DNA of 64,000 bases from Corynebacterium sp. 74A (GTDB lineage Bacteria; Actinomycetota; Actinomycetes; Mycobacteriales; Mycobacteriaceae). The stretch covers positions 310,001 through 374,000 of the forward strand of contig NZ_PQMG01000001.1 in the NCBI RefSeq assembly GCF_008930665.1, given 5' to 3'. The notes under the pieces were generated by a model that worked only from the letters and a program-made list of their open reading frames with translations, made no database searches and was not told where the DNA came from. A program made the position numbers and the translations under genes. Of the stretch, positions 36,685 to 37,975 are shown one piece after another; position 1 is the stretch's first letter; each line of letters begins with the position of its first letter.

Positions 36685-37767
36685 CTAGTCCTGGGAGGCC
36701 TCCACGCGGGCACTGCGCTGCGCGGCATCGCCGGTGGCGCTGTCCTCGTGCTTACCCAAGAGCTTGTTCGTGGAGATAGCCACGGCCCCTTGGGCCTCAT
36801 CGCGCTTGCCCTTGATCCAGGACGCCACAATGGTCAGCACCAACACGCCCACGATGAAGGCCAAGGACATCCAGGTGCCGATCTCGGGCACATGCACATC
36901 CTCGCCGCCATTGATGAAGGGCAGGTTGTTTTCGTGCAGGGCGTGCAGGATGAGCTTCACGGCGATGAACGCCAGAATGATGCCCAGGCCATAGGCCAGG
37001 TAAACGAGGCGATCGAGCAGCCCATCGAGCAGGAAGTACATTTGCCGCAGGCCCATCAAGGCCAAGGCATTGGCGGTGAAGACGATATAGGCCTCGTTGG
37101 TCAGCCCATAGATGGCGGGGATGGAATCGAAGGCGAACATCACGTCGATAAAGCCGATCGCCACCAGCGCCATCGCCATCGGGGTAAAGAAACGCTTACC
37201 GTTGACGCGGGCGGTCATCTTATCGCCGTTGTAGTCGTCCGTCATCGGAATGAACCGGCGGGTGAAGCGGATAATCGCCATGTCCGCAGGATCGGTCGGC
37301 GGTGCATCCTTCGCCTCTTCCCACACGGTTTTGATCGCCGTGTAGAGCAAGAAGATACCGAAGAGATAGAAGATATCCGACCAGGCATTAATGGCGGCCG
37401 CGCCCAAGAGAATGAATACGGTGCGGAAGACCAACGCCATGGCGATACCGAAGAGCAGCACCTTTTGTTGATACTTGCGGGGAACATTGAAGGTGCCGAT
37501 GATCAGCGCGAACACGAAGAGGTTGTCCACGCTCAATGCTTTTTCGGTGACGTAGCCGGAGAGGAACTCCAGGCCGCGTTGGTGATCCCAAACCAGCCAC
37601 ACAAAACCGCCGAAGAGCATGGCGAGCACCACGTAGAAGGCGGTCCAAAAGCCGGCTTCTTTCAAGCTCGGCTCGTGCGGGGTTTTGACGTGGGTAAAGA
37701 AGTCGAATGCGATGAACGCAATGACAATCACGGCCGTGAGCACCCACACCCACAAAGGCACATGCAT
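36685..37767 (-). CDS. TerC-family membrane protein, probable manganese exporter
   Basis: 360-aa integral membrane protein from ATG 37767 (RBS ACCGGAGG). Contains the TerC signatures EKALSVDNLFVFALI, FRTVFILLGAA and DVMFAFDSIPAIYG with buried acidic residues, and about nine hydrophobic segments. TerC/Alx proteins export manganese and help load metal onto secreted enzymes. A yybP-ykoY-type manganese riboswitch lies directly upstream (37805-37916), so metal-dependent control is likely. Confidence 0.93.
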   Translation of the reverse strand: MHVPLWVWVLTAVIVIAFIAFDFFTHVKTPHEPSLKEAGFWTAFYVVLAMLFGGFVWLVWDHQRGLEFLSGYVTEKALSVDNLFVFALIIGTFNVPRKYQQKVLLFGIAMALVFRTVFILLGAAAINAWSDIFYLFGIFLLYTAIKTVWEEAKDAPPTDPADMAIIRFTRRFIPMTDDYNGDKMTARVNGKRFFTPMAMALVAIGFIDVMFAFDSIPAIYGLTNEAYIVFTANALALMGLRQMYFLLDGLLDRLVYLAYGLGIILAFIAVKLILHALHENNLPFINGGEDVHVPEIGTWMSLAFIVGVLVLTIVASWIKGKRDEAQGAVAISTNKLLGKHEDSATGDAAQRSARVEASQD

Positions 37768-37776
37768 AGTGATTAT

Positions 37777-37916
37777 CCTCCGGTGCGAAAAGTAGTTACG
37801 TACCGGAGGTCTCCCCCACCGCGTAGTGGGCTGGTGGGACCGGGGCTGCTGCACGCCATCGCGGTACAGCGGCGGCCGTGCTGACGATCACCACCATTTC
37901 AGGGGTACTCCCCTCC
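37777..37916 (-). ncRNA. yybP-ykoY-type manganese riboswitch upstream of terC
   Basis: On the minus strand the leader holds the conserved GGGGAGTA (37913-37906) of this riboswitch class, a middle CGTCAGCACGG segment, and the downstream GGGAGACC (37815-37808). P1 pairs GGAGG (37916-37912) with CCTCC (37809-37805). The same 3' strand extended, CCTCCGGT (37809-37802), is fully complementary to ACCGGAGG (37784-37777), which contains the terC ribosome site. So metal-bound P1 would free the ribosome site, giving an ON switch. Class assignment is by eye. Confidence 0.85.
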
Positions 37917-37937
37917 ATGACGGAACCCACTATATAC

Positions 37938-37975
37938 GAAAAACCCGCACACATTGATCTCCATGTGTGCGGGTT
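37938..37975 (-). terminator. Intrinsic terminator after ftsK
   Basis: 13-bp perfect stem (arm AACCCGCACACAT, 37942-37954 with 37963-37975) with an 8-nt loop, followed on the minus strand by a T run (GGGTTTTTCG). It lies just after the ftsK stop and before the terC riboswitch. Confidence 0.88.

Follow-up and report, generated by a model that had tools for sequence, protein, structure and literature searches.

The leader of terC in Corynebacterium sp. 74A is very probably a yybP-ykoY (Mn2+) riboswitch that turns its gene on at the level of translation. It lies on the minus strand of the analysed window, a stretch of DNA of 64,000 nucleotides, between the stop codon of ftsK (37983–37981) and the ATG of terC at 37767. 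The landmarks of the yybP-ykoY class that the original prediction had read from the bare sequence, GGGGAGTA at 37913–37906 and GGGGGAGACC at 37817–37808, were recovered at exactly these positions on the minus strand, and so was the P1 closing helix between GGAGG (37916–37912) and CCTCC (37809–37805). The coordinates of the second pairing were likewise exact, in which CCTCCGGT (37809–37802) is complementary to ACCGGAGG (37784–37777), the ribosome site of terC. The spacing between this Shine-Dalgarno (SD) sequence and the ATG of terC is 9 nucleotides (Table 1). GGGGAGTA and AGACC are separated by a gap of 93 bases in the window, and the combination of GGGGAGTA with AGACC 75–105 bases further on occurs once in the window, compared with 0.02 times per shuffled window (2 in 100). 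The assignment to the yybP-ykoY class is supported by the core motifs, the covarying helices, and the recognition of E. coli alx by a covariance model derived from Corynebacterium. The leader looks like a genuine member of this class, and thus like a known type of switch and not a new kind; all that is new is this one further instance.

Table 1. Features of the terC leader and its surroundings in the window, in order of transcription.
Feature	Position	Strand	Remark
Putative -10 box TATAGT	37929..37934	-	transcription start expected near 37922, inferred
P1 5' strand GGAGG	37912..37916	-	P1 covaries outside the genus
L1 5' strand GGAGUA	37906..37911	-	GGGGAGTA in 149/149 leaders
P1.2 5' strand CCCC	37902..37905	-	partner 37817-37814
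P3.1 5' strand UGGUGG-u-GA	37888..37896	-	with 37832-37839: 8 pairs, one bulge
L3 UCGUCAGCA	37879..37887	-	CGTCANCACG in 149/149 leaders
P3.2 arm	37840..37878	-	conserved closing CGG/CCCGG
P3.1 3' strand	37832..37839	-	covariation
P4 arm	37815..37830	-	2 model pairs, or CCCACU/GGUGGG in predicted OFF fold
L1 3' strand GAGACC	37808..37813	-	GAGACC in 145/149 leaders
Shared switch strand CCUCCGGU	37802..37809	-	first 5 bases = P1 3' strand; or anti-SD
terC Shine-Dalgarno strand ACCGGAGG	37777..37784	-	pairing probability with shared strand 0.96-1.0
terC CDS, 360 aa, TerC/Alx family	36685..37767	-	regulated gene; ATG at 37767

The protein encoded downstream of the leader scored 363.5 bits against TIGR03718 ('R_switched_Alx', TerC/Alx metal homeostasis protein; cut-off 246.4) and 167.7 bits against PF03741, for which it is the sole match in the genome. 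No match to PF02659 (MntP) was found in the genome. By family assignment, terC would be a Mn2+ homeostasis gene. The same order of ftsK and terC, with terC directly downstream, is found in C. glutamicum as cg2158 and cg2157 (PMC7775120); there, terC is discussed for a possible role in the cell envelope, and the main text of that paper does not contain the word riboswitch. A strong terminator-like hairpin follows ftsK at 37939–37973 (11-bp stem, U tract, −25 kcal/mol, z −5.3) and adjoins the putative −10 box of terC (37934–37929); it is absent from the output of the terminator scan. A weak Rfam match to trpB covers this hairpin and was regarded, like the weak matches to mir-1905, CRISPR-DR57, and others, as due to chance, all of them being below their own cut-offs.

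A TANNNT motif ending 10–20 nt upstream of P1 is present in 143 of 149 Corynebacterium terC leaders, compared with 3–12 of 149 in four control intervals. A generic sigma-70 scan of the leader in the window found no promoter. The conserved position of the −10 box makes a transcription start near 37922, slightly ahead of P1, probable, and in C. glutamicum a 5'-UTR start was observed close to the Rfam match (PMC3890552, Table 2). The leader was therefore folded from 37922, the expected transcription start; a fold begun upstream of it produced a long pairing with promoter bases and was set aside.

The set of leaders contains one sequence for each genome with a terC match at an E-value of 1e-60, which applied to 149 of the 151 genomes of the genus. 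The two genomes without a terC match are 77% and 53% complete, and second terC matches in two genomes (G129 and G058) were left out of the set. The motifs GGGGAGUA and CGUCANCACG are present in all 149 leaders, as is the CGUCA context of the L3 adenosine. The 3' side of L1 reads GAGACC in 145 of them, and the remaining four have AGACC with a different preceding base. By analogy with A41/A48, A37882 within CGUCA would occupy the position of the Mn2+-contacting adenosine; an invariable adenosine in L3 is described to contact Mn2+ in yybP-ykoY RNAs (PMC6754395). An insert at the position of P2 was found in 18 of the leaders, and the other 131, among them the leader in the window, are without it.

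To assess covariation, 59 diverse aptamers, the window included, were picked from the 85 short ones among the 149 and aligned. In the helices P1, P1.2, P3.1, P3.2, and P4, 91% of the cells of this alignment are paired, compared with 79% after shuffling; 16 of the 26 pairs show double changes, and the covariation score is 0.347 versus 0.134 in shuffled alignments. None of 500 shuffles matched the alignment on any of these measures, and the signal was lost when the partner columns were slid. Double changes occur at all eight pairs of P3.1 and all four pairs of P4, P3.2 pairs poorly (76% of cells), and P1 is nearly invariant inside the genus. The P4 of the window itself is weak, with two model pairs.

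From these 59 aptamers, which include neither alx nor mntP, a covariance model (R1) was built. R1 assigned 78.8 bits to the window, which is a member of the training set, and outside the training set recognised E. coli alx with 45.3 bits (E-value 2.3e-9) and E. coli mntP with 18 bits (E-value 0.02). Under strict filters, matches were obtained in 120 of 151 genomes of the family, 89 of 121 of the order, and 43 of 198 of the phylum. When TerC loci were fetched by their protein, 76 of 80 carried an R1 match upstream on the same strand, many of these loci belonging to Corynebacterium and thus being near the training set. In the window's own genome R1 identified one riboswitch, the next match having an E-value of 3.15. 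Because of its training set, R1 favours members that lack P2 and undercounts those that bear it; P2 was not taken as a defining element, since 18 of the 149 leaders have the insert and alx aligns to R1 without one. One complete genome of the genus (G182) was missed by R1 in the family search and, when scored alone, reached 20.6 bits (E-value 0.149). Its locus (L360; G182:C9:334186-334347) has the landmarks, a P2-like insert, an SD hairpin, and a TerC-like start.

The Rfam covariance search that had been named as a check in the original prediction gave a different picture. The Rfam 15 model RF00080 (cut-off 45 bits) found no match at the gathering threshold, nor at E-values up to 10, in the whole window or in sequences trimmed to 401 and 131 bases. 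In a control, the same model assigned only 41.6 bits, below its cut-off, to E. coli mntP and did not list alx up to an E-value of 10 (mntP/alx control loci L152, 1462–1558, and L153, 1376–1499). Since RF00080 under-scores one and omits the other of these two riboswitches, its null result for the window is uninformative. At an E-value of 0.001 and with stricter filters no RF00080 match was found in the 151 genomes of the genus, and neither 20 Corynebacterium loci nor 20 loci from other genera gave a gathering match. Three of 14 control genomes were positive at an E-value of 0.001 (E. coli, B. subtilis, and Caulobacter), two of them above the cut-off; C. glutamicum served as a control solely in a run at the looser E-value limit of 10, with nine controls whose passes were not itemised. 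Two sub-threshold RF00080 matches were obtained elsewhere in the genome; the part of one (L001) that was inspected contains no GGGGAGTA. With an earlier Rfam release (2013), the leader of C. glutamicum cg2157 (terC) was assigned to RF00080 with 49.13 bits and an observed 5'-UTR from 2,043,151 (PMC3890552, Table 2), and a yybP-ykoY entry for C. pseudotuberculosis has 49.16 bits (PMC3890534).

The proposal that P1 and the SD helix exclude each other is backed by conservation within the genus and by specific complementarity outside it. The GG/CC extension of the helix between shared and SD strand is paired in 148 and 149 of the 149 leaders, the next two pairs are formed in 139 and 146, and in five leaders one of the five core SD pairs is missing; these counts, as well as those from predicted folds given below, are inflated by the selection of the SD site by best complementarity. 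The window is among the three exceptions at the last extension pair, so that its helix consists of eight pairs. No covariation signal was detected for the SD helix in the genus (own fit 7.846 versus 7.833 in permutations), where covariation is undetectable because the SD and shared strands are nearly invariant.

For the analysis outside the genus 122 loci were used, from which eight without a recognisable core were dropped; removal of six Corynebacterium loci and of duplicates reduced the remaining 114 to 106. In the exchange tests, real and exchanged pairs were treated identically, each being searched across the full region downstream. In the 106 non-Corynebacterium leaders, the fit of the shared strand to the region downstream of it in the same leader was 7.014 of 8, compared with 6.417 ± 0.053 when regions were exchanged (0 of 500 permutations), and the better fit to the own region holds separately for leaders with CCTCC (n = 70) and CCTTC (n = 26; 0 of 500 each); as the leaders are related, the permutation counts should not be read as exact probabilities. 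The P1 strands of the 106 loci are GGAGG/CCTCC (n = 54), GAAGG/CCTTC (n = 20), GAAGG/CCTCC (n = 2), GGAGG/CCTTC (n = 0), and other combinations (n = 30). Downstream, GGAGG is present in 54 of the 70 CCTCC leaders and in 7 of the 26 CCTTC leaders, and GAAGG in 5 of the 70 and in only 8 of the 26, respectively.

In the window, the predicted ground state is the OFF state, with an SD pairing probability of 0.96–1.0 and that of P1 near 0, and the pairing probability of SD and shared strand exceeds 0.5 in 145 of the 149 predicted folds. The 45-nt SD hairpin has a predicted energy of −16.3 kcal/mol, compared with −6.9 ± 2.3 kcal/mol for shuffled sequences, none of 200 shuffles being as stable; the fold of the whole 163-nt leader surpasses shuffled sequences only moderately (z −2.0, 8 of 200 as good). 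Forcing P1 and P1.2 to form costs about 13–16 kcal/mol in the window (13.4 with a different trimming, 16 when folded from 37922), and the gap between OFF and ON reaches up to 18.9 kcal/mol if the SD must open. Across the 149 leaders the OFF state lies below the ON state by a median of 10.8 kcal/mol (range 0.3–21.6). Tertiary contacts, such as those formed when L1 and L3 dock in the presence of Mn2+, are not part of these predicted energies; even so, the gap may be too large for ligand binding alone to bridge. The notion that metal binding frees the ribosome site is supported as far as the mutually exclusive helices are concerned, but a simple freeing at equilibrium is unlikely, the predicted OFF state being about 13–16 kcal/mol more stable. 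The large gap suggests that switching is probably decided during transcription and not at equilibrium, with the metal acting before the SD strand has been made. For the riboswitch of L. lactis, single-molecule experiments are reported to show that Mn2+ and a nearby polymerase help P1.1 to form (PMC11087558).

Transcription would begin just before P1, and the aptamer (P1, P1.2, P3 with L3, and P4) would be finished before the ribosome site is synthesised. With Mn2+ bound at L1/L3, P1 would keep the CCUCC strand and leave the SD at 37784–37777 free; if P1 is held while the ribosome loads, TerC would be made and Mn2+ exported. Without Mn2+, CCUCCGGU would pair with ACCGGAGG across a loop of 17 nt, and the SD would be covered. 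In this scheme we infer Mn2+ as the ligand, the direction of the switch, its co-transcriptional timing, and the export of Mn2+.

Several other readings of the same data were weighed. The aptamer could be correct and its main output transcriptional, with Rho acting on an SD-covered, untranslated leader or with the hairpin itself terminating transcription. Rho acts at E. coli mntP and is cited for the FMN riboswitch of C. glutamicum (PMC11647493), and in 13 of the 149 leaders the hairpin is lengthened by at least three outer pairs and then followed by a U-rich tract. In the window, however, no U tract lies past the hairpin (ATAATCAC; the best eight bases hold three T), a terminator scan limited to loops of 3–8 found none in the leader and none in L011, and the association between a longer helix and a U tract was not significant (p 0.06), which makes this reading rather unlikely. 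An SD hairpin extended into the GAGACC strand and followed by at least five T in eight bases, by eye similar to an intrinsic terminator, was observed in L008, L009, L010, L011, L062, L064, L093, L107, L114, L121, L129, L132, and L137. It is conceivable, if doubtful, that the genus harbours a compact, mostly P2-less switch under kinetic control whose hairpin doubles as a terminator in some species, so that a series from translational to combined translational and transcriptional Mn2+ control would exist among its members.

That the RNA mainly senses something other than Mn2+, for instance alkaline pH or a different divalent metal, is improbable: E. coli alx, the best cross-match of R1, is reported to respond also to alkaline shock, but Mn is the reported ligand of both alx and mntP (PMC9603457), and the CGUCA context of the adenosine that contacts Mn2+ in known members is conserved in every leader of the genus. 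It is very unlikely that the SD hairpin only sets the basal level of translation, with no exchange between it and P1. The great stability of this hairpin and its predicted pairing in nearly all leaders would fit such a role. Against it speak the near invariance of the GG/CC extension that adjoins the P1 and SD strands, and the fit of the shared strand outside the genus, both to its partner in P1 and to the ribosome-site region of the same leader. A chance resemblance to the class, for which the lack of an RF00080 match might be quoted, is practically excluded by the covariation, the cross-recognition of alx, and the R1 matches in the family and upstream of the great majority of the TerC loci.

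The translational Mn2+ switch proposed here can be compared with several known systems. E. coli alx resembles the window in its TerC-family target, in the motifs GGGGAGUA, GAUCGUCA, CCGGUC, and GAGACC and, as judged by eye, in a P3.1 with one bulged base; its P4 is larger, however, and its start codon lies further from the aptamer. E. coli mntP is described as a Mn-responsive translational ON switch that exposes its ribosome-binding site, and is thus of the type proposed here (PMC11647493), but it belongs to a distinct exporter, has about 118 nt separating the aptamer from the start codon, and obtains a weak R1 score. The aptamers of L. lactis and X. oryzae share the L1/L3 core and a P1.1 switch helix (PMC6754395, PMC11087558), but exert transcriptional control and, unlike the window with its lack of an insert at the P2 site, form a four-way junction. 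The cg2157 leader of C. glutamicum belongs to another species, and the relevant published passages give no description of helices that would switch (PMC3890552, PMC7775120). A survey that included the Corynebacteriaceae reported yybP-ykoY from over 75% of the taxonomic groups it covered (PMC3766115). No description of a shared-strand SD switch in a corynebacterial terC leader was found in the literature searched.

Some further loci were observed in the R1 and TerC searches. In two other members of the phylum (L198, L199) an R1 match precedes a reading frame with P-type cation ATPase domains and not terC. C. bouchesdurhonense SN14 (G129:C16; L287, L288) has two terC copies of equal score that face in opposite directions and are separated by about 6 kb; each has an R1 match of 80.2 bits. 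TerC proteins of Halotalea, Salinicola, Chromohalobacter, and Halomonas are 51–57% identical to that of the window and have R1 matches upstream of their genes (L317, L318, L320, L322–L324, L328, L336–L338, L340); judged from these similarities, horizontal transfer is possible.

With a single strand of eight bases that serves both states, the terC leader is a clean candidate for a translational Mn2+ switch in an actinobacterium. Annotation based on the Rfam 15 model RF00080 may undercount the yybP-ykoY class and will miss the predicted Mn2+ control of terC across this group.
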